Shown one piece after another: positions 6,183 to 37,211 of a DNA stretch of 37,211 bases. Location of the stretch: assembly GCA_028288775.1 (NCBI GenBank), contig JAQGHP010000788.1:1-37211 (forward strand), read 5' to 3'. How positions within the stretch are numbered: the first letter of the stretch is position 1; each line of letters starts with the position of its first letter. Made by a program: the position numbers and the translations under genes. Under the pieces are notes generated by a model that saw only the letters and a program-made list of their open reading frames with translations, ran no database searches and had not been told where the DNA came from. This DNA is from Phycisphaerales bacterium. GTDB taxonomy: Bacteria; Planctomycetota; Phycisphaerae; Tepidisphaerales; Tepidisphaeraceae.

Positions 6183-6743
6183 TTATTTGGCGGCATCCGG
6201 GGCCTTGGCGGCGTCCTTCGCGTCCTGGGTGCCGACTTCCTTTTCAATCGCGGCTTTGGCCGCGTCGGTCGCCTTGGCCGCGTCCGGCTTGGGCGCATCG
6301 GGCGCGGGGGCGTCCGGCTTCACGCTGGGTTCGGGGGCGGCCGGGTCGGGCTTCACTGTCGGATCGGGCACGGCTGGCGCATCGGGCTTGGGCGCATCCG
6401 GAACTTTCGGAGCGTCCGGCTTGGGCTCGTCAGGAATCTTTGGAGCGTCCGGTTTGGGCGCGTCGGGAACCTTCGGCGCATCCGGCTTGGGCGTGTCAGC
6501 CACCGGGGCGTCGGGCTTCTTCAGATCGGCGCCGGTCGAAACATGGTCCGCCGTGGGAACCACGGGTGCCGCCTGGCTGGGGTCGGTGGCCTTGGTGTCA
6601 ACGCTGCCGCCCGCGGCGGGCGCGTTGCCGACGACGGGCGCGGGGGTCTGATCCATTTGCGCGTCAGCCTGATGGCGGGCGCAGCCGACGGCCACAACAC
6701 TACCCAAGGTTAAAAGGCCAGCGAGACAAAGTTTGGTGTTCAT
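6183..6743 (-). CDS. Lipoprotein with PDAPKPDAPK-type repeats
   Basis: MNTKLCLAGLLTLGSVVAVGCARHQ lipobox; repeated 'KPDAPKVPDAPKPDAPKIPDEPKPDAPKVPDAPKPDAPAVPD'. Confidence 0.8.
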   Translation of the reverse strand: MNTKLCLAGLLTLGSVVAVGCARHQADAQMDQTPAPVVGNAPAAGGSVDTKATDPSQAAPVVPTADHVSTGADLKKPDAPVADTPKPDAPKVPDAPKPDAPKIPDEPKPDAPKVPDAPKPDAPAVPDPTVKPDPAAPEPSVKPDAPAPDAPKPDAAKATDAAKAAIEKEVGTQDAKDAAKAPDAAK

Positions 6744-11827: not shown

Positions 11828-12202
11828 GCGCCGATGGAATTGGCCGCGGTGCGGAAAACCGCGAAGCCGCGAAAGCGCGAAGACTGACGCGAAGAAACAC
11901 CGAAAGTGTCGCCACAGATGAACACAGATAGACACGGATAGAAAACGCTTCCTGTGACATGGGCGTCCCGCCCATGCTCGATGCGCCCGGAGGCTCCGGG
12001 ATATATTGTTTTCGAATGCTTTGCTAATTCCTACGCAGCAGGCACGGGCGGGACGCCCGTGTCACGTTGGGGCTTGCTCCTCGTCTTATCCGTGTTCATC
12101 TGTGTCCCTCCGGGGCGACCATTCTTCCGCATTTCTTCGCGTCTGTCTTCGCGCCCTTCGCGGCTTCGCGGTTTTCCGCACCGCGGTTCGTTTCCACGGC
12201 GC
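11828..12202. repeat. ~375-bp nested palindrome with three layers of repeat arms
   Basis: Outer arms CCGCGGTGCGGAAAACCGCGAAGCCGCGAA (11844-11873) and its reverse complement (12157-12186), extended by GCGCCG.TGGAA; middle arms CACAGATGAACACAGATAGACACGGATA versus TTATCCGTGTTCATCTGTG; inner arms GTGACATGGGCGTCCCGCCCATGC (11954-11977) versus GCACGGGCGGGACGCCCGTGTCAC (12042-12065). Confidence 0.9.
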
Positions 12203-12203
12203 A

Positions 12204-12292
12204 AAGAAGAGTCGCTGCGCTCGGGCCTTCTCCGACCCAAGTACCGGCTGAACGTCACGGGGTACCGTGACCCATTGGGCAAACTGCCCATG
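12204..12292 (-). repeat. Composite multi-hairpin cassette, copy C (degenerate)
   Basis: Minus strand reads CATGGGCAgttTGCCCAATG-GGTCACGGTACCCCGTGAC-GTTCAGCCGGTACTTGGGTCGGAGAA, matching copies at 31129-31200 and 36540-36605. Confidence 0.75.
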
Positions 12293-12422
12293 CCGCGGCT
12301 TGCGCGGGCGGCGCATGTCACGGCTGCCCGCGCAGCGCCCCGAGTCGAAATCGGGCGCGAGTTTATACTCCAACTGCATTCGGCGATGGGCTATGCTCAC
12401 TCGGGGGCCTGATGACGATCGC

Positions 12423-15317
12423 ATGGACTCGATGCAGACCACACACGCCGCCGACGTCGCCGTCGCTTCCTCCAGGCCAAATCCCCTGCTTCCTCACGCG
12501 GTTGTGGCGGCCGAAGTAATCGTTGCGTTGGGCAGTGACCCGCACTCTGGTCTCGTGGCGGCGCAGATCGAATTGCTCCGCGCCCGCCACGGCGCGAACC
12601 GACTGGCCGAAGCGCCGCCGCCTTCGCGATGGGGCCGGTTTCTGCGGCAGTTCAACGAGCTGATCATTTGGATCCTCATCCTCGCCGCCCTCATTTCCGG
12701 GTTCATGAAAGAGTGGACGGACGCGATCGCCATCGTGGCCATCGTGCTGCTCAACGGCGTGCTCGGGTTCCTTCAGGAAGAAAAAGCGGGCAAGGCACTG
12801 GCCGCCCTGCGAAAAATGTCGTCGCCCCAGGCGAAAGTCGTGCGCGACGGCGTCGTACAGATGCTCCCGGCGGAAGACCTACTGCCCGGCGACCGCGTCG
12901 AGCTCGAGGCCGGCGACTTCATTCCCGCGGATGTGCGCCTCGTCAGCGCATCGGGACTGCGCGTGCAGGAGTCGGCGCTGACCGGGGAATCGGCCCCGGT
13001 GGACAAGGACCCCGCCGCGATGCTCGATGGCGATACGCCGCTGGCCGAGCGCATCACCATGGCCTACATGGGCACGCTCGCCACGTCCGGCAAAGCGACG
13101 GCGGTGGTCGTCGCCACGGGCATGCGAACCGAGTTGGGAAAGATCGCCGGGCTGCTGCAACACGAAGACCTCGAGCCCACGCCGCTGCAAAGGCGGCTGG
13201 CGGAACTGGGCAAAGTGATCGTCGCGGCGTGCCTCGTGATCGTCGCGATCATCTTCGTGTTGCAGGTTCTGCGGGGAAGCCCCATTCACGAAGCATTCCT
13301 CCTTGCCGTCAGCCTCGCCGTCGCGGCGGTTCCCGAGGGTCTGCCCGCGGTGGTCACCATCGCCCTGGCCCTGGGCCTGCAGCGCATGGCGAAGCGCAAC
13401 GCCCTCGTCCGCAAGCTGCCGAGCGTGGAAACGCTGGGGTCGGTCACCGTCATCTGCTCCGACAAAACCGGCACGCTCACGCGCAACGAGATGACCGTCC
13501 GCGAGGTGTACGCGGCGGGCGGGCGGTACGAAGTGAGCGGGATTGGGTATTCGCCGGAGGGGAATTTTCGCAAGACCGCAAACGCGAGCGAGGGAGGGAA
13601 CGTCGCCCGTGGCACGGGCGGCCCGCCCGTGTCGGACGCGCTTCCCCCCGATGAACCGCGCGGCACTCCAGCCGATTCCACGGAACACGGGCGGGCCGCC
13701 CATGCCACGGCAGCGCAGCCGATACTCCAAGAGACCGCTCCCTCGCTCGACCCGGACCTGATCCGGGCGCTCACGATCGGCGCGTGGTGCAATTACGCCT
13801 ACCTCGCCCCGCCCGCGCCCGGCGAAGGAAAAAGCTGGCGTCTCACGGGCGATCCCACCGAAGGCGCGCTGATGGTGGCGGCGCTGAAGGCGGCCATTGT
13901 CACCGCCAACCGCGAGCACGAACTCCTCTACGAACTCCCCTTCGATTCCGACCGCAAGCTCATGACCGTCGTCGCCCGCGGGGCAGGCGGGCACGGAATC
14001 GCCTACACCAAGGGCGCGCCGGAAGTCGTGCTGGCCCGCTGCAATTTCGAGCGGCGGGCCGGCGCGATCGTCCCACTCACCCCGGCGCGACGGAGCGAAA
14101 TCCTCGCCGCCGGCTCGGACATGGCCGCCCGCGCGCTGCGGGTGCTGGGGCTGGCCTACCGCGACATGCCAGGGGTCTGGCCGGAAGATTGTTTGGAGTG
14201 CGAGTTGGTATTCAGCGGGCTGGCGGGACTGTTTGATCCGCCGCGAGAGGAGGCGCGCCCGGCGGTGGACAAGTGCCACCGCGCCGGCATCCGCCCGGTC
14301 ATGATCACCGGCGACCACCCCGCCACCGCGCTCGCCGTCGCGCGGGACCTGGGCATCGCCCGCGAAACCGATTCCGCACTCACCGGCAAGCGCTTGGACG
14401 AACTGGACGACGACGCCCTAGCCCATGTCGTCGAGCAGACGCCCGTCTACGCCCGCGTCACGGCCGAGCACAAGCTGCGCGTCGTGCGGGCGTGGCAGGC
14501 CAAAGGCCACGTCGTCGCGATGACCGGCGACGGGGTCAACGACGCGCCCGCGGTAAAGTCCGCCGATATCGGCATTGCCATGGGCCAGGCGGGCACGGAC
14601 GTCACGCGCGAGGCCGCGGACATGGTGCTGACGGACGACAACTTCGCCTCCATCGTCGCGGCCATCGAAGAGGGCCGCGGGATTTTCGACGACATCCAGA
14701 AGTTCGTTCACTACTTGCTGAGCTGCAACACGGGCGAAGTGTTGGTGATGTTCGTGGGCGCGCTGGCCGGGTGGCCCGCGCCGCTGGTGGCGATCCAGAT
14801 CTTGTGGGTGAACCTGGTGACCGATGCGCTACCGGCGTTGGCGCTGGGGATCGAGCGGCCCGAGCCGGATATCATGGAGCGCCGCCCCCGCCCGCCGCGG
14901 GAAGGGGTCATTACACTCCGTCGCGGCCTGCTCATGCTCTTCCACGGCACGCTCATCGCCGGAGCGACCATCGCGGGCTTCGTGATGGTGCGGCGGAGCA
15001 GCCCCAACTCCATTGACGCAGCCCGGACGGTTGCATTTTGTATTTTGTCCTATTCGCAGCTCTTCTATTCCTTCGCCTGCCGCAGCCAGCGGTACACGCT
15101 GCCGAAGCTGGGGATCATGACGAATCCATACCTGCTGGGCGCGATCGTGATCTCGGGGCTGATACAGCTCGCCGTGTTCCTGCCGTTCCTGCGCGGGGTG
15201 TTCCACGTGACGTGGTTGACGTGGGAATGGCCGCTGGTGCTGCTGTTGGCGCTGACACCGGTGACGATCATTGAGGTGCTGAAGATCCTTCGGGCGGGCA
15301 TATTCCCAAAAACGTGA
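12423..15317 (+). CDS. Cation-transporting P-type ATPase (P2A / Ca2+-ATPase-like)
   Basis: [15 protein letters not shown] phosphorylation motif; [43 protein letters not shown]-terminal [26 protein letters not shown]. Contains an in-frame palindromic repeat at 13609-13708. Confidence 0.96.
13609..13708. repeat. REPIN-like inverted palindrome pair inside the P-type ATPase CDS
   Basis: GTGGCACGGGCGGCCCGCCCGTGT (13609-13632) and ACACGGGCGGGCCGCCCATGCCAC (13685-13708) are reverse complements at 23/24 positions, around a 52-bp core; open in frame ([11 protein letters not shown]...[11 protein letters not shown]). Confidence 0.93.
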
Positions 15318-19065: not shown

Positions 19066-19253
19066 CAGCCCCGGAGGGGCGTAAGAAGCGTTAGATATTC
19101 GAACCATGTCCGATGTTCGGGGGATCCGTTCGGGCAAGGGACGATCGGAGCCGGGCAGTGTCGGCCCGGCTCCGAATGGATTTCGTCGGCCACGCAATTT
19201 GATCGTCAGAGGCGGAATGGGAATTCAGCGCTTCTTACGCCCCTCCGGGGCTG
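19066..19253. repeat. Perfect 25-bp inverted repeat pair (CAGCCCCGGAGGGGCGTAAGAAGCG)
   Basis: CAGCCCCGGAGGGGCGTAAGAAGCG (19066-19090); exact reverse complement at 19229-19253; internal hairpin CGGAGCCGGG (19146-19155)/CCCGGCTCCG (19165-19174). Confidence 0.93.
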
Positions 19254-19273
19254 TGCGCCATTCGGGATCTTTT

Positions 19274-19320
19274 CCCACGGCTTGCGCCGTGGGCTAAGTT
19301 CTTACGCCCCTCCGGGGCTG
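19274..19320. repeat. CCCACGGC-ttgc-GCCGTGGG hairpin plus third copy of TTCTTACGCCCCTCCGGGGCTG
   Basis: Hairpin 19274-19293; direct repeat of 19232-19253 at 19299-19320. Confidence 0.9.
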
Positions 19321-19370
19321 ATCGCGTGGGCTTCAGAGCCGCACGGTTTCGTAAGTCAACATTGAAATCA

Positions 19371-23372: not shown

Positions 23373-23705
23373 GCGAAGGAAATGAACGCCAAGAGAGCAA
23401 CACGCGCGCGGGATTCAGTGAAGCGACGGGCGTATCACTTTCGAAATGAAATCGAACGCAGAGACGCAGAGACGCAGAGGTAGGAAAGAGAGAGAACTGC
23501 TGGGCCGCCCTCAGAATTCTCGAAGGGCCTTATACTCAAGCCAACAATCCTCTCCGCGCTTTCCTCTGCGTCTCGGCGTCTCTGCGTTGGATTTTATTGC
23601 CCGGACGGCCGGACGTGTCGCAGCAAGAACAGCGCAACCACTTCCCCGTATTCCTTGGCGTTTCCAGTCTTGGCGTCCTTGGCGTCTGGCATTCATTTCC
23701 TTCGC
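23373..23705. repeat. Nested palindrome: outer GCGAAGGAAATGAAYGCCA arms, inner GCAGAGACGCAGAGAC arms
   Basis: Outer GCGAAGGAAATGAACGCCA (23373-23391) versus TGGCATTCATTTCCTTCGC (23687-23705). Inner AATCGAACGCAGAGACGCAGAGACGCAGAGG (from 23450) versus CCTCTGCGTCTCGGCGTCTCTGCGTTGGATT (to 23593). Right outer flank has repeated CTTGGCGT. Confidence 0.9.
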
Positions 23706-29004: not shown

Positions 29005-29080
29005 CGCAGTCAATTCAAGACTCATCGCGGAGACACGGAGGCGTGCCCAAGTTTCCGTGGCCGCGCAGTTCAGGGATGAA

Positions 29081-29226
29081 AATCGAACGCAGAGATGCCG
29101 AGACGCAGAAGTAGGAAAGAGAGAGAATGAGTGAGCCGAATGCCGGCCCCTCGCGAAATCCTGGGCACCCAGAAGCATTCCTTTTCTCCCTCCTACCTCT
29201 GCGCCTCGGCATCTCTGCGTTCGATT
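29081..29226. repeat. ~146-bp palindrome, same family as the inner part of 23450-23593
   Basis: AATCGAACGCAGAGATGCCGAG (29081-29102) is the perfect reverse complement of CTCGGCATCTCTGCGTTCGATT (29205-29226); pairing extends imperfectly through GTAGGAAAGAGAG/CTCCCTCCTAC. Confidence 0.94.
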
Positions 29227-29241
29227 CTCTCCCATTCCCTC

Positions 29242-30960: not shown

Positions 30961-31105
30961 CGCTGCCCAACCCGCCCGCAATTTCGTTGCCGGGGCCAGC
31001 GGCCTCGGCCGACAAGAGTGCGCGGCACATTCGGCGGCTCCTGCTCCCTCCTACGGTATTCCCAGGGATGGATGGGACGGGGTTCGATGCGCACCTCTGC
31101 CATGA

Positions 31106-31307
31106 CATGGGCGGCCCGCCCATGAAGTGGCACGGGCAGCTTGCCCGTGGTCACGGTACTCCGTGACATTCGGCCGGTGCTCTGGCCGAAGAAAGCAAAA
31201 TGTGGCACAGCCGCCCCCGGCTGTGTTCCGCTGCAGGCGGGAGAAGAAAGACACAGCCGAGGGCGGCTGTGCCACACGGGTCCTGTAGGTTTGGCTCCGA
31301 ACCTAGC
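31106..31307 (+). repeat. Composite multi-hairpin cassette, copy A
   Basis: Successive hairpins: CATGGGCGGCCCGCCCATG (31106-31124); CACGGGCA-gct-TGCCCGTG (31131-31149); GTCACGG-tact-CCGTGAC (31150-31167); TTCGGCC...GGCCGAA (31169-31190); TGTGGCACAGCCGCC.../...GGCGGCTGTGCCACA arms (31201-31276); AGGTTtggctccgAACCT. Confidence 0.92.
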
Positions 31308-31313
31308 AGTCGC

Positions 31314-33017
31314 TCACGGCAAGGCGTTAAAGAGGTCGATCAGCGATTGCACGTCCGTGGGCAAGATCGGCGGACGAACGGATTGCCTCTCCCAGCCGAA
31401 CAATGCTTCCACCGCCGCCCCGCAGATTCGCCCCTGACACGGCCCCATCCCGCAGCGCGTCTGAAGCTTGGCCGCGAGCCACGATTCGTGCCCGTGGAGG
31501 CGTTCGAACGTCACGTCTTCGCACCGGCACACGATCGTGTCCGGTCGAGGCAGGCTCCGCAATTCCTGCCGCAATGCGAACGCAGCCTCAAGCCGCCGGG
31601 CAAATACGCGAGCCCTGTCGCGGGCGCGAAACAGAGCCCGCGCCCGCCCAGGCTGATCCGCAGCCGCGTACCCCGCGATCTGTCCTTCGAGCAGCGAAAG
31701 GTCGAGCCCGCCAATGCCGGTGATCTCCCCTGCGGCATACACACCCGGCAGCGAAGTCTGCTGTGAAGCATCCACGCCCACCGCGCCGCACAAAATTTCG
31801 CAACCGAGCAGAGCCGCGAGATCGGTGTTGGGAACAAGCCCGAACCCGCACGCCAGATAATCGCAGTGCTCGGTCCAATCCGTCCGCCCGTCGCTGAGCG
31901 TGACGGACGCGAGCCGCCCCTCGCCCGCTGCCGAGGTCGGCCAGCAGCCCGCGGCGAAGCGAATCCCGCGCAGCCCCCGCCGCAGATCAAGCGCTTGCCG
32001 CAGCTTTGCCGGATGCCCGAGCAACCCCATTCCGAAGCGCGCCAAGTTTTTCCGCGGCGTCTGCTCGGCGATGAGTCGCACGTCCGCGCCGCGATGCCGA
32101 AGGTACGCCGCGACTGCCAGCAACAGCGGCCCTGAACCTGCGACCACAACGCGCTTGCCCTCGATCGGTAACCCCGACTTCACCATCGCCTGCAGACCAC
32201 CCGCCCCCATTACATTCGGGAGCGTCCAGCCCGGAAACGGAAGCAGCAACTCTCTCGCGCCCGTTGCGAGCACGAGCCGGTCGCAAGTGAAGGAACGCGC
32301 TTCGCCGCCGGTCTCGGCGAGGAGTTTGCCCGGCCCGTTTGCGCCGATGATTTGCGTGCCGGGAAACATCACAACGCCGCTCTTGCGAACGCGGTCAAAC
32401 CATCGGCCGGCATCCGCGCCTACGGGATGATCGCCCTGCGCCCGCCAGATTTGCCCGCCCGCCGCGGGGTTGTCGTCGATGACGGCAACGCGCCGGCCGG
32501 CCTCCGCGGCGCAACACGCCGCCGCGAGCCCGGCAGGGCCGGCGCCGACGATGACCACGTCGAAAACGTGCGCCGATGTGTTTCCGCGAGGGAGTTCGTC
32601 TGCCTTCCGCACGCGCGATGGCTTCGAAGCGGGCCCTCCGACAGTGCCTGGGAGATTTACGCTATTCGACGCTCGGCCCCTCGCCCCTGCCCTCTCCCCC
32701 GAGTACGAGGGAGAGGGAGGCTGGTCGCTCGCGCTTGCGAGATCGCATTGAAGTGGAGCGCCGCTTGCTTGCGCGCTCGTGAGAATTTCCATCCCCGCCC
32801 GCACCGTCATCTGACAACTTCTGCATTGCCGCTTGCCGTCGATTTCCACCCTGCATTCGAAGCAGACGCCCATCCCGCACACCGGCCCGCGCGGCTCGCC
32901 GCTTGCCGATTGGCGGGTGACTCCGCCGGTCGCCGCGCACACCGCCGCCGCGACGGTGCAACCCACGGGCACCTTTGCGCGCGTCCCATCGATCGTGATG
33001 GACATTTCCTCAGCCAT
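31314..33017 (-). CDS. FAD-dependent oxidoreductase with N-terminal 2Fe-2S domain and C-terminal Cys cluster (D-hydroxyproline dehydrogenase alpha/gamma-like)
   Basis: N-terminal CGMGVCFECRVEIDGKRQCRSCQ (Fer2-like); FDVVIVGAGPAGLAAACCAAEAGRRVAVIDDNPAAGGQIW; C-terminal CRCEDVTFERL...TRCGMGPCQGRIC. Confidence 0.9.
   Translation of the reverse strand: MAEEMSITIDGTRAKVPVGCTVAAAVCAATGGVTRQSASGEPRGPVCGMGVCFECRVEIDGKRQCRSCQMTVRAGMEILTSAQASGAPLQCDLASASDQPPSPSYSGERAGARGRASNSVNLPGTVGGPASKPSRVRKADELPRGNTSAHVFDVVIVGAGPAGLAAACCAAEAGRRVAVIDDNPAAGGQIWRAQGDHPVGADAGRWFDRVRKSGVVMFPGTQIIGANGPGKLLAETGGEARSFTCDRLVLATGARELLLPFPGWTLPNVMGAGGLQAMVKSGLPIEGKRVVVAGSGPLLLAVAAYLRHRGADVRLIAEQTPRKNLARFGMGLLGHPAKLRQALDLRRGLRGIRFAAGCWPTSAAGEGRLASVTLSDGRTDWTEHCDYLACGFGLVPNTDLAALLGCEILCGAVGVDASQQTSLPGVYAAGEITGIGGLDLSLLEGQIAGYAAADQPGRARALFRARDRARVFARRLEAAFALRQELRSLPRPDTIVCRCEDVTFERLHGHESWLAAKLQTRCGMGPCQGRICGAAVEALFGWERQSVRPPILPTDVQSLIDLFNALP
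32680..32717. repeat. CCCTCTCCC...GGGAGAGGG dispersed palindrome inside CDS
   Basis: CCCTCTCCC (32690-32698)-ccgagtacga-GGGAGAGGG (32709-32717); in frame, encoding PPSPSYSGERAGARGRA; second copy at 20085-20130. Confidence 0.88.
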
Positions 33018-34140
33018 GGTGGGCCGCGACAAGTGACCGTGAAGGGAGATAAGGCGCGGTCGGGATTTTCGACTCGCGCCCCAACACGTGGTCCACGATC
33101 AACTCTGCCGTCGCGAGTGAAGTGGTGATCCCCAGCCCTTCGTGCCCCGCCGCGATGAGTAGCTTCGGATCGTCCGCATGCGGCCCGATGAAGGGAAGCG
33201 AATCGGGCGTCGCGGCCCGAAAGCCCGTCCAAGTCCGGATCACCGACAACCCCGCGAGCCCCGGCATATACGTCGTCGCCCGCGCGAGCATGCGATGGAT
33301 CATCCGATGTTCCACCGCGCCGCCCTCCGCGCCGAACTGCCGGGATGAGCCGATGAGCAACTGCCCCGTCGGTCGCGGCTGCACGTTAAACGCCACCGAA
33401 TCCCCATCCGACCCGTGCGCGCTTTTCAGATACCCCAGTTCGAGCAATTGATGATTGACGAAGCCGGGGTATCGATCGGTAATCACCAAGTGCCCTTTCC
33501 GCGGCCGGATCTCCAGATCGGGCGTGAGCTCGGTCGCCGAGGTCCCGGCCGCGTTCAAGCAGAAGTCCGCTTCGACACGCGTACCGTCATCCAGTTTCAC
33601 TTCCCCACCGTTCAGCGCAACCACCCGTGCGTCCGTCCGAACCTCCGTCCCAAGTCGCCCGGCAGTGCCGAGAAGAAACTGTGCCACAACCGGCGGATAG
33701 ACCACGCTATCGCCCGGGATCAGCAGCCCCCCGGCCATGCCCCCGCACAGGTTCGGCTCCATCGCCGCGAGTTCCTCTCTGGTTAGCGCGCGGGACTCGA
33801 GTGACCGCTCCGCATAGTGGCGCTCTTTGCGATGCACCTCGGCCATTTCCTCGTCATCCGCCGCCACCCAGATCGTGCCGTAGCGGGTGAATTCCGCCGA
33901 CTCAGGCAATGACGGCGCGAGGGCATCCCAGAGCGATTGCGAATAGCGGCAGAGCGCGAACTGAGCCTCGGAATCGTCCATCACCGTGACGTGCCCCATC
34001 CCCGCCGCCGTCGCCCCGCTGCCGGCGGGCCGGTGGTCGAGAACGATGACGCGGAACCCTTCGCGCGCCAGCGCCGCCGCACACGCAGCACCGACGATGC
34101 CAGCGCCCACAATCGCGACGCGCGTCTGCCGGGGGTTCAT
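33010..34140 (-). CDS. FAD-dependent amino acid oxidase (DadA-like; D-hydroxyproline dehydrogenase beta-like)
   Basis: [92 protein letters not shown]. Confidence 0.92.
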
Positions 34141-35087
34141 GCGCGAATCCCCGCGCAAAAGGGGTCGTTCGAATTGAGTACCAACGTCGCCTCCGCGTTC
34201 ACGTACGCCGACCCGCGGACGTGGGGGATGATCTTGTCGCCTTCGATGGTTGCATACGCTTCAAACACGCTGCCGATGATGCTCTCCTGCCGCCAACGCT
34301 GCCCTTCGCGGAGCTTCCGATCCTCCACCAGGCACGCGATCTTGGCGCTCGTCCCCGTCCCGCAGGGCGAGCGGTCGTACGCCTTCCCCGGGCACAGCAC
34401 GAAATTCCGGCTGTCGCACCCGGCAATCGTCGGCGGGCCGAACAACTCGATATGGTCAATTTCCGCGCCGTCCGCGCCGGTGACGCCTTCTCGCACGAGG
34501 GCCTCGCGCACGCGCCACGCAAAATTCGTCAGCCGCTCCACGTTCTTCAGCGACAATTCCTGCCCGTGATCCGAAACGAGAAAGAACCAATTTCCCCCCC
34601 ACGCGATGTCGCCGATGACGGGACCGTGGCCGGCCACGTTCACCTTCACGCCCTTCGCGTGGCGGTAGCTGGGGACGTTTCGGACCGTCACATGATTCGC
34701 GTCTTCCAGCGTCGCGCTGACGACCCCCACCGGCGTCTCGATCCGATGCGTCCCCGGCCCGATGCGCCCCATGTGCGCAAGCGTCACCACCAGCCCGATC
34801 GTCCCGTGCCCGCACATGTTCAGGTAGCCGACGTTATTGAAAAAGATCACGCCCGCCGCACACGTCGGGTCCACCGGCTCGCAGAGCAACGCCCCGACCA
34901 TCACGTCCGAGCCCCGCGGCTCATTGACGACCGCCGATCGGATCGCATCGAATTTCTCGCGAAAAACCGCCACCCGCGCCGCGAGACTCCCGGAGCCCAG
35001 GACAGGCCCGCCGGAAATGATCACGCGCGTCGGCTCGCCGCCGGTATGGGAGTCGATCACCTGAATGCGCTGGACGAAGTCAGTCAT
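34137..35087 (-). CDS. 4-hydroxyproline 2-epimerase (proline racemase family)
   Basis: [25 protein letters not shown] and [14 protein letters not shown], so both catalytic-type cysteines are present. Confidence 0.93.
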
Positions 35088-35118
35088 CCTTCACCGTCAT
35101 TCTCCACGTTGCGCCATC

Positions 35119-35210
35119 GTGGCACGGGTTTTCAACCCGTGCTAGGTTCGGAGGGAGGCGAGCGACGCTATCTGCCAACGCATTTCGCACGGGTTGAAAA
35201 CCCGTGCCAC
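35119..35210. repeat. REPIN-like inverted palindrome pair with GGGTTTTCAACCC hairpins
   Basis: GTGGCACGGGTTTTCAACCCGTGC (35119-35142) and its exact reverse complement GCACGGGTTGAAAACCCGTGCCAC (35187-35210), 44-bp core. Confidence 0.96.
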
Positions 35211-35300
35211 GCCAACGCCATCTGTTCGCCCGAAATTCCGCCCACTCTGCAATTGCGATGCATCAGCGGTGCGCCCATGTCGCAACAACGCAAACTTCCC

Positions 35301-36206
35301 TCAAATCTTCGGCAGCGTCGGCCGCGTGCGGATCGCCTTGCGGATGATCCCCAAAACCTCCTCCCGCTCCGCCCCCGCCAGCGGCAATCGCGGCGGCCGC
35401 ACCGTCTCCGTACCATACCCGCACTCCGCATTCGCCAGCTTGATGTACTGCACGAGCTTCACGTGCGTGTCCAAATGCAGCAGCGGCGTATACCAGCGGT
35501 AAATCTCCCGCGCCTCCTCCCATCGCCCCGCCATCGCCAACCGCCACACCGCGCGGTTCTCCGCCGGGAACGCGTTCACCAAGCCCGACACCCACCCCAC
35601 CGCACCCAGCAGCGCCGCTTCGAGGGCGAGATCGTCCACGCCGCAGAAAAGAATGTATCGATCCCCCACCTCATTCTTGATGTCCGTGATCCGGCGGACG
35701 TTCTCCGACGATTCCTTGATCGCCACCAGCGTCGGCTCGTCCGCCAGATCCGCGAACATCTTCGGCGTGATATCCACCTTGTACGAAACCGGATTGTTGT
35801 AAACGAGGATTGGCAGATCGCTCGCCTTCGCGACGGCGCGGAAATGGGCGATCGTCTCCCGTTCGTCCGATTTGTAGACCATCGCCGGCAGCACCATGAG
35901 GCCGTCGGCTCCAGCCTTCTGCGCGTCCGCCGCGTAGCGGCAGGCGAGGCGAGTGGTGTACTCCGCCACGCCGCTGAGCACCGGCACTCTACCCGCGACG
36001 TGCTTCACCGTCGCCCGCAAAACCTCCATCTTCTCGGCATATTCCAGCGAGCAGTTCTCGCCGACCGTGCCAAGCATGATGAGCCCCTCGATGCCGGCAT
36101 CGAGCATCGCGTCCAGATGCTTGAGCGTCGCGGGCACGTCGAGCGAATGATCGCTTTTGAACTGCGTGGTAGCCGCGGGAAAAACGCCGTTCCAAGTCAC
36201 TTTCAT
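35301..36206 (-). CDS. Dihydrodipicolinate synthase family (1-pyrroline-4-hydroxy-2-carboxylate deaminase-like)
   Basis: GVFPAATTQFKSDHSLDVPATLKHLDAMLDAGIEGLIMLGTVGENCSL; PILVYNNPVSYKVDI; LVAIKESSENVRRI (Schiff-base Lys context). Confidence 0.9.
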   Translation of the reverse strand: MKVTWNGVFPAATTQFKSDHSLDVPATLKHLDAMLDAGIEGLIMLGTVGENCSLEYAEKMEVLRATVKHVAGRVPVLSGVAEYTTRLACRYAADAQKAGADGLMVLPAMVYKSDERETIAHFRAVAKASDLPILVYNNPVSYKVDITPKMFADLADEPTLVAIKESSENVRRITDIKNEVGDRYILFCGVDDLALEAALLGAVGWVSGLVNAFPAENRAVWRLAMAGRWEEAREIYRWYTPLLHLDTHVKLVQYIKLANAECGYGTETVRPPRLPLAGAEREEVLGIIRKAIRTRPTLPKI

Positions 36207-36254
36207 GATCGGACCTCAGTTAGAGCCGGGCACGTTTTGGTTGCTTCCAGCGGA

Positions 36255-36287
36255 AATCGAACGTACAGACGCCGAGGCGCAAATGAG
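36255..36287. repeat. Solo, decayed arm of the AATCGAACGCAGAGACGCC repeat
   Basis: AATCGAACGTACAGACGCCGAGGCGCAAATGAG; compare 29081 AATCGAACGCAGAGATGCCGAGACGCAGAAGTAG. No matching opposite arm seen nearby. Confidence 0.7.
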
Positions 36288-36393
36288 CACCGCGCCGCAG
36301 AGCGAAGTCCCCGTGTCGATGAAGTTGTGCATGGGATGCTCCTTCGCCGTTCGATTGCGAGATCCTATCAAACGGATAATCGCGTGCGCGTCC

Positions 36394-36606
36394 CATGGCA
36401 CGGGCGGCCCGCCCGTGGGCGGCGGCACTCTGCCGCGTTGACCGTTACTCGGGCATGTGTGGCACAGCCGCCCTCGGCTGTGTTTTTATCTTCCGCCTTC
36501 GGCGGAATCACAGCCGGGGGCGGCTGTGCCACATTGCTTTCTTCAATCCGAGTACGGATCGAACGTCACGGAGTAGCGCGACCATGGGCGGGCCGCCCGT
36601 GCCACG
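36394..36606 (-). repeat. Composite multi-hairpin cassette, copy B (triple nested)
   Basis: Outer CATGGCACGGGCGGCCCGCCCGTGG (36394-36418) versus CCATGGGCGGGCCGCCCGTGCCACG (36582-36606); inner TGTGGCACAGCCGCC.../...GGCGGCTGTGCCACA (36458-36533); innermost TTCCGCC-ttc-GGCGGAA. Minus strand matches copy A in order. Confidence 0.93.
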
Positions 36607-36625
36607 AAATGCGGCCAGCCAAAGC

Positions 36626-37211
36626 CTACGTCTTCCTCGCCGCTTTCATCGCTCTCCCGGATTTTCCGCTCATCAGCTCTTCGATCTCCTCCGGCTCGAT
36701 CGGGATGTCCGCCATCAGATCCACATTGCCCGTTTCGGTGATCAGCACGTCGTTCTCCAGGCGAATGCCGAAGCCCTCTTCCTTGATGTAGATGCCCGGC
36801 TCCAGCGTGAGCACCCAGCCCGGTTGCATCGGCTTTTGCGGCAGACCCAGGTCATGTACATCGAGCCCCAGCGGGTGGGCAACGCCGTGCATGAAATACT
36901 TTCGGACTGCCGGGTTGTCCGGGTCCTGCTTGCGGACTTGCGAGGGCTTGAGTAGTCCCAGGTCCACGCATTCCTTTGTCGTGAGTTCTTCGGCCCGCTT
37001 GCGGAGGTCGCGGGTCAGGACGCCGGGGCGCATCTCGCTCATCAGTGTGCGGAAGACGCGCAGAACGGCGCGGTAGACCTCCTTCTGTCGACGGGTGAAA
37101 CGCCCGCTCACGGGGATCGTGCGGGTAAGGTCCGACATGTAATTCCCATACCCCGCGGCCACGTCCAGCAGCAGAAGCTGCCCGGCCTTGCAAGGCTGGT
37201 CGTTGCTGACG
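36626..37211 (-). CDS. M24 family metallopeptidase (Xaa-Pro aminopeptidase/prolidase-like), partial at window end
   Basis: LLLLDVAAGYGNYMSDLTRTIPVSGRFTRRQKEVYRAVL; MHGVAHPLGLDVHDLG; LTLEPGIYIKEEGFGIRLENDVLITETG; the frame is open to the window edge. Confidence 0.94.
   Translation of the reverse strand, partial: VSNDQPCKAGQLLLLDVAAGYGNYMSDLTRTIPVSGRFTRRQKEVYRAVLRVFRTLMSEMRPGVLTRDLRKRAEELTTKECVDLGLLKPSQVRKQDPDNPAVRKYFMHGVAHPLGLDVHDLGLPQKPMQPGWVLTLEPGIYIKEEGFGIRLENDVLITETGNVDLMADIPIEPEEIEELMSGKSGRAMKAARKT

Follow-up and report, generated by a model that had tools for sequence, protein, structure and literature searches.

A high-copy nested palindromic repeat of Phycisphaerales, probably a REP dimer with a structured spacer that folds as single-stranded DNA

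Three copies of a multi-hairpin repeat in a Phycisphaerales contig

The window (the whole 37,211-nt stretch of DNA that was analysed) is contig C310 of the draft genome G000, which comprises 6.29 Mb in 801 contigs and is 89% complete. A probable hydroxyproline catabolism cluster occupies the minus strand at 31314-37162, with genes for an M24 peptidase, a DHDPS-family protein, a proline racemase/epimerase, DAO, and Fer2/Pyr_redox oxidoreductases. Two copies of the repeat described here (copies A and B) lie in or beside the spacers of this probable cluster, as does a different GTGG-REP pair (GTGGCACGGGTTTTCAACCCGTG, inverted) at 35119-35210, between the DHDPS-family and proline-racemase genes. 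A first-pass annotation, made from the sequence alone, had proposed that one cassette occurs three times, as copy A on the plus strand and copies B and C on the minus strand; all three copies are real, and every module lies where it had been placed.

Copy A (31127-31276, plus strand) begins with a left-end REP, a GTGG guide-like tetranucleotide followed by CACGGGC-AGCTT-GCCCGTG (31127-31149), and continues through hairpin H1, GTCACGG-TACT-CCGTGAC (31150-31167), and hairpin H2, TTCGGCCGG-TGCT-CTGGCCGAA (31169-31190); the covariance-model match covers 31127-31196 and scores 94 bits. An inserted REPIN-like inverted repeat, TGTGGCACAGCCGCC...GGCGGCTGTGCCACA, follows on the same strand at 31201-31276 (arms 31201-31225 and 31252-31276). 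Directly upstream of copy A lies an extra REP hairpin, CATGACATGGGCGGCCCGCCCATG (31101-31124, plus strand). The covariance model detected no right end at its expected place (31285-31305), where the plus strand carries GTAGGTTTGGCTCCGAACCTA, a portion of a third, GTAG-type REP.

Copy B is a complete 211-bp element on the minus strand (36395-36605). Its left end (36536-36605, 85.8 bits in the covariance model) consists of the REP (36605-36583), H1 (36582-36565), and H2 (36563-36542), and is followed by a REPIN centre (36533-36458), so that the modules run from 36605 down to 36458 in the order of copy A, as annotated. The stems quoted for this copy also agree, H2 being TTCGATCCG/CGGATTGAA with one G.T wobble, and H1 being GTCGCGC/CCGTGAC with one G.T wobble and one C.C mismatch. 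Copy C is a complete but decayed 343-bp element on the minus strand (11954-12296; 68.6 and 25.3 bits for its ends), whose left end (12231-12296) retains the REP (12296-12273), H1 (12271-12254), and a decayed H2 (12252-12231); it carries the GAGCGCAGCGAC centre motif, with GAGCGCAGCGACTC at 12222-12209 after the left end, and, as had been noted, has no GTGGCACAGCC arm, and no REPIN. Copies B and C both extend further than the annotation had allowed, each being closed by an inverted right end on the plus strand: in copy B at 36395-36462 (or 36395-36457; 38.7 bits), with the REP ATGGCACGGGCGGCCCGCCCGTG and then the CGGCACTCTGCCG hairpin, and in copy C at about 11954-12019, where the covariance model finds a GTGACATGGGCGTCCCGCCCATG REP.

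Anatomy of the repeat

A BLAST search with copy A against its own genome returned 88 matching stretches, with E-values down to 1e-45 besides the self-match, and the covariance model of the left end (R1) gave at least 118 matches in the same genome, a count that includes some right ends and is a lower bound as it takes in nearly all of the 123 scored candidates. Together with the z-scores of -11 to -13 obtained on folding as DNA, these numbers exclude a chance arrangement. Alignment of the matches shows three parts, namely a left end (LE), a centre, and, in inverted orientation, a right end (RE). Reading inward, each end consists of GT[AG]G with its REP hairpin, two hairpins with TAC(N) loops, and a AGAGCGCAGCGAtC motif, and the whole unit is thus a nested palindrome, an outward-facing pair of GT[AG]G REPs, each with two inner hairpins and the AGAGCGCAGCGAtC motif. 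The left end starts with GTGG and CATGGGC-NNNNN-GCCCATG, and continues with H1 (GTCACGG-TACT-CCGTGAC), H2 (TTCGGCCGG-TACT-CCGGTCGAA), and GAAAGC. The right end, read inward on the other strand, has the design of the left end built from other stems, namely GTGGCACGGGCGGCCCGCCCGTG, GCGGCGG-TACT-CCGCCGC, and TTGGCCGG-TACT-CCGG....

REPs have been defined by a GT[AG]G tetranucleotide at the foot of a 6-13 bp short-loop hairpin (PMC6006769, PMC3733652); here, nearly all of the 108 parsed ends start with GTGG or GTAG, followed by a stem of 7-8 bp and a loop of 3-5 nt. The ends also pair as REP dimers do, inverted, with the tetranucleotides outside and at a fixed spacing. The unit takes a compact form in two other genera, measuring 190-195 bp in 17 elements of genome G022 and 183-188 bp in eight of nine elements of genome G016, so that 25 of the 26 measured elements fall within 183-195 bp. 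In this form an inner inverted motif, AGAGCGCAGCGATC ... GAGCGCTGCGCTCT, connects the two ends, and the same motif follows H2 in most copies of the congener G001 (the metagenome-assembled Phycisphaerales bacterium RYN_428, JAQGHH01) and in copy C of the window. An inverted right end was detected within 700 nt of 30 of the 49 left-end copies in the genus, and some of the unpaired copies stop at contig edges. Pairing is more complete in G022, where the genome-wide list gives a partner to 32 of the 43 strong ends and a local search adds seven (39 of 43, with four single ends); none of the strong ends of this genome are paired at a gene-sized spacing. Several G022 copies (L258, L259, L261, L262, L264, and L274) are flanked on both sides by an outer inverted layer, CATCCTGAGAGGGTGTTNAAGAAC..., which may be another nested mobile repeat.

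Copy number, range, and genomic setting

An unbiased sample of 100 contigs of G000 (835,708 bp) contains 12-13 strong ends, equivalent to about 95 in the whole genome, and the repeat is thus present in about 95-118 copies in its own genome. The left-end model also gives 73 matches in G001, 84 in G003, 83 in G016, and 70 in G022. Among 249 genomes of the class, matches above about 40 bits occur only within the host's family, and the weak matches of 31-35 bits outside this family are most likely ordinary REP pairs. Within the family, the element is absent from several near-complete genomes.

According to gene calls made with a hexamer model built in this analysis, all but one of 53 copies (52) lie between genes, in random orientation to their neighbours (16 ++, 10 --, 11 -+, and 9 +-). 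The ratio of the two orientations relative to the upstream gene is 27:23 (p = 0.67), and it is 16:10 in the co-directional cases (p = 0.33). No description of the repeat in Phycisphaerae was found in the open-access papers searched.

A chimera with a REPIN centre and turnover between congeners

The inverted repeat on the right-hand side of copies A and B, which had been annotated as part of the cassette, is present in both but belongs to a separate repeat family: copies of GTGGCACAGCCGCC...GGCGGCTGTGCCAC, itself a REPIN of the GTGG type, also stand alone in G000 and G001. In G000, the left end is fused to this REPIN at 22 places with essentially one junction (GAAAGC-AAAA-TGTGGCAC), whereas none of the 21 left-end copies in the congener G001 carry the fusion. 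The unbiased sample of G000 contains 12 left-end copies, of which four carry the fusion and one more a remnant of it, the remaining seven having a GAGCGCAGCGAC-type centre or a decayed form. The composite with the GTGGCACAGCC...GGCTGTGCCAC arm is therefore a younger chimera, in which a second REPIN sits in the centre of the element. The simplest reading is that one fusion occurred in the G000 lineage and that the whole composite was then copied. Accordingly, the module order proposed for the cassette holds in part, the order REP-H1-H2 being kept across genera and the full order with the GTGGCACAGCC arm being confined to this species.

Six G001 elements could be located together with their neighbourhood in the sample of G000, and five of the six loci differ. 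The element is found at the same site in both congeners at one locus (L105/L177), with a different interior. It is cleanly absent from G000 at another (L106/L217), with both flanks matching, and this is the only clean two-sided empty site; the four further G001 elements that are absent from G000 have one matched flank each. The exact junction at G001 L106/L140 versus G000 L217 is hidden, as the intergenic sequence is too diverged to align. With one clean empty site and such divergence, the differences may reflect gain or loss.

Covariation and the nature of the folded strand

The first-pass annotation had taken the varying stems of the three copies as compatible with selection on structure. 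Copies have now been collected from the host and related genomes, and covariation across about 100 ends from eight genera bears this view out, as the stems change and still pair. In the observed hairpins, 93% of the H1 positions are paired (107 parsed hairpins with 30 different 5' arms), compared with 77% (maximum 81%) in 2000 shuffles of whole 3' arms, and 88% of the H2 positions (101 hairpins with 52 different 5' arms), compared with 71% (maximum 75%); since the hairpin registers were picked by hairpin quality, the absolute percentages are somewhat inflated. On the untouched MAFFT alignment, the per-pair counts exceed those of all 500 shuffles in cells paired, double-change cells, and covariation score, but not in the number of pairs or pair types. 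Many of the double changes are shared by descent within subfamilies, so that the cells outnumber the underlying events. The stems differ between ends, subfamilies, and genera, yet remain complementary, and the same TAC(N) loop is found inside stems as different as GTCACGG/CCGTGAC, GCCGTGG/CCACGGC, GCCAAGG/CCTTGGC, GCGTCGG/CCGACGC, and GCCGCGG/CCGCGGT.

Near-pairs on the GT[AG]G strand are G.T in 34 events and A.C in 14 (p = 0.006); part of this excess may come from the method, since the detection model and the hairpin picker alike prefer G.T to A.C. At the right ends, whose folding strand is the other strand of the element, G.T also prevails, by nine to two. Because the excess appears on each end's own strand, one transcript could not favour both, which points, suggestively only, to single-stranded DNA. 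Furthermore, the centre of the element is freely replaced by GTAG-type REPINs, GTAGGGTGGG REPINs, and other repeats. The random intergenic orientation, the G.T bias, and the exchangeable centre all favour single-stranded DNA as the folded form. Covariation alone could stem from hairpin-templated repair, and strong covariation of intergenic hairpins need not signal RNA.

Search for the mobilising enzyme

Y1 transposases of the RAYT/TnpA-REP type read a GT[AG]G foot as their signature (PMC6006769, PMC2817692). G000 has three RAYT-like genes, none of which reaches the NCBIfam cut-off, and a single IS200-like gene; RAYT-like proteins are encoded on its contigs C764 and C307. A scan of 33 Y1_Tnp loci, by covariance model and by a finder of GT[AG]G hairpins, showed the ends described here at none of them and other GT[AG]G hairpins at a few. 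No cognate Y1/RAYT gene flanked by these ends was found in G000 or in the related genomes examined, and, with the G000 draft being 89% complete, such a gene could be missing from it. No autonomous copy occurs among all the strong ends of G022 and G013. One G022 end (contig C56, L265) lies about 770 bp from a Y1 gene; it belongs to a truncated element with no partner beyond the gene, and was rejected as a candidate. A RAYT phylogeny built on the 20 of 40 proteins recovered by a motif filter contains no clade that tracks the element-rich genomes, and some members of the family have many Y1 genes yet lack the element. As no Y1 gene was found between or beside the ends, we infer the mobilising enzyme rather than observe it.

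Relation to known repeats and rival explanations

Rhodopirellula baltica and Opitutus terrae are among the PVC bacteria from which GTAG-tagged REP head-to-head (HH) dimers are known; some of these dimers have structured spacers or are lodged in other palindromes (PMC3733652). The Phycisphaerales repeat shares with such dimers a short hairpin with GT[AG]G at its foot, the outward pairing, the intergenic location, the high copy number, and the compensated stems, but differs in that each REP is accompanied by two TAC(N)-loop hairpins and an inner inverted motif within a unit of 183-223 bp, and in that no adjacent RAYT was found. The REPINs of Pseudomonas fluorescens SBW25 are doublets with a simple spacer, typically spaced at 71 and 110 bp, and are thought to be moved as single-stranded DNA by a RAYT (PMC3116915); the present repeat is likewise an extragenic inverted REP doublet that forms a long hairpin with compensatory changes, but at about 190 bp, with four extra hairpins in the spacer, it departs from the published REPIN range (about 71-110 bp), is about double the length, contains at least six hairpins, and has no linked RAYT. 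Like the BIMEs of E. coli, it combines REPs of alternating orientation and further recurrent modules into a mosaic whose order and content vary, whereas its symmetrical shell is fixed across genera and only the centre is exchanged. A subterminal hairpin with a 5' tetranucleotide guide at each end, and small non-autonomous derivatives, are features shared with IS200/IS605 ends and Y1-associated REPs (PMC6006769), which differ in having a transposase gene between or beside the ends. As the repeat has the features that define REPs and REP dimers but neither a linked RAYT nor a simple spacer, it is a variant of the known REP-dimer kind.

Copies A-C are therefore probably a non-autonomous, intergenic head-to-head REP dimer of the REPIN/BIME type, with a spacer of unusual structure and a fold adopted as single-stranded DNA, rather than an RNA gene. 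Such an element would work and move like a REPIN: each end would act as folded single-stranded DNA, its GT[AG]G foot would be bound and cut in trans by a Y1 transposase resembling RAYT/TnpA-REP, and copies would spread to intergenic sites on either strand. In the G000 lineage, one REPIN would have landed in the centre of the element, and the composite would then have been copied onward as one unit. It is somewhat unlikely, though conceivable, that the repeat represents a distinct class mobilised as single-stranded DNA, with ends made of three hairpins (the REP and two TAC-loop hairpins) where one would be usual, recognition by an enzyme of this Phycisphaerales family, and a centre serving as a landing pad that captures REPINs and spreads the chimera.

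The annotation had also suggested a check for a discrete transcript, and a structured RNA (a cis-regulatory leader, a 3' end or terminator, or a small RNA) that was duplicated while selection on its fold produced the covariation would account for the strong hairpins in an RNA fold (z -14), the compensatory changes with G.U-like wobbles, and the intergenic location. This explanation is very unlikely, as the copies have no preferred orientation to genes and are dispersed in the form of inverted pairs, the folding strand differs between the two ends and each end favours G.T on its own GT[AG]G strand, the interiors are freely swapped for unrelated repeats, and the cassette matches no Rfam family, Acido-Lenti-1 elsewhere being the only passing match in the window. 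Terminal inverted repeats, uniform length, and the lack of autonomy, together with the extra outer layer of inverted sequence, GAGAGGGTGTTNAAGAAC, that encloses some G022 copies, would also suit a MITE of a DDE transposon, in which the outward REP is the terminal inverted repeat recognised by a cut-and-paste transposase that duplicates its target. Unlike the terminal repeats of DDE elements, however, the left and right hairpins behind the termini diverge independently, and the outer layer is missing from many G022 copies and from the inspected G016 and G000 flanks; a MITE is decidedly unlikely. In the flanks read by eye (G016, G022, and G000), no consistent target duplication was seen. Palindromic sites kept by the host for gyrase, nucleoid, or IHF-type binding or as boundaries, and spread by duplication or gene conversion with hairpin-templated correction, have a precedent in the REPs and BIMEs of E. 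coli, which bind gyrase and IHF (PMC2817692), and would fit the copies whose site is shared by the two congeners (L105/L177). The patchy range within one family, many members of which lack the element, and the differences at five of the six anchored loci argue against an essential shared site, and such host-kept sites are an unlikely explanation.

For the REP-dimer reading, the repeat illustrates how REP-type sequences build layered units in planctomycetes: a palindromic shell is kept across about nine genera, while its centre gives way to another mobile palindrome, the resulting hybrid being amplified in one species, providing a traceable case of how mosaic repeats such as BIMEs arise. The strict TAC loops amid freely changing stems raise the question of which protein reads the loops.

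Other repeats in the window

Several further repeats accompany the three copies. A 100-bp GTGG-REP dimer (13609-13708) lies in frame within a P-type cation ATPase gene (12423-15317), where it falls between the E1-E2 ATPase and nucleotide-binding Pfam domains. The sites 23445-23609 and 29065-29229 belong to a further family of palindromic repeats (CGCAGAGACGCAGAGG...); the orthologous spacers of G001 (contig C613) are about 285 and 370 nt shorter, making this repeat a presence/absence difference between the congeners. Imperfect direct repeats with a 33-nt spacing (GGAGCGTCCGGCTTGGGC...) are found at 6243-6519, possibly in a repeat-rich coding stretch.

The Rfam Acido-Lenti-1 RNA (RF01687) is matched at 19274-19319, within 19066-19325. 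It behaves as a dispersed repeat, with 110 matches in G000 and 52 in G001, and many of its copies are inverted pairs roughly 160-280 nt apart. On G000 contig C306 (L001, 1301-2045), inverted Acido-Lenti-1 hairpins stand on either side of an IS200-type Y1 transposase gene, and the Rfam small RNA family may thus be the hairpin end of a Y1-transposase element. With its hairpins flanking an IS200-type gene and its copies dispersed through the genome, Acido-Lenti-1 offers a parallel, within G000, to the hairpin repeat.
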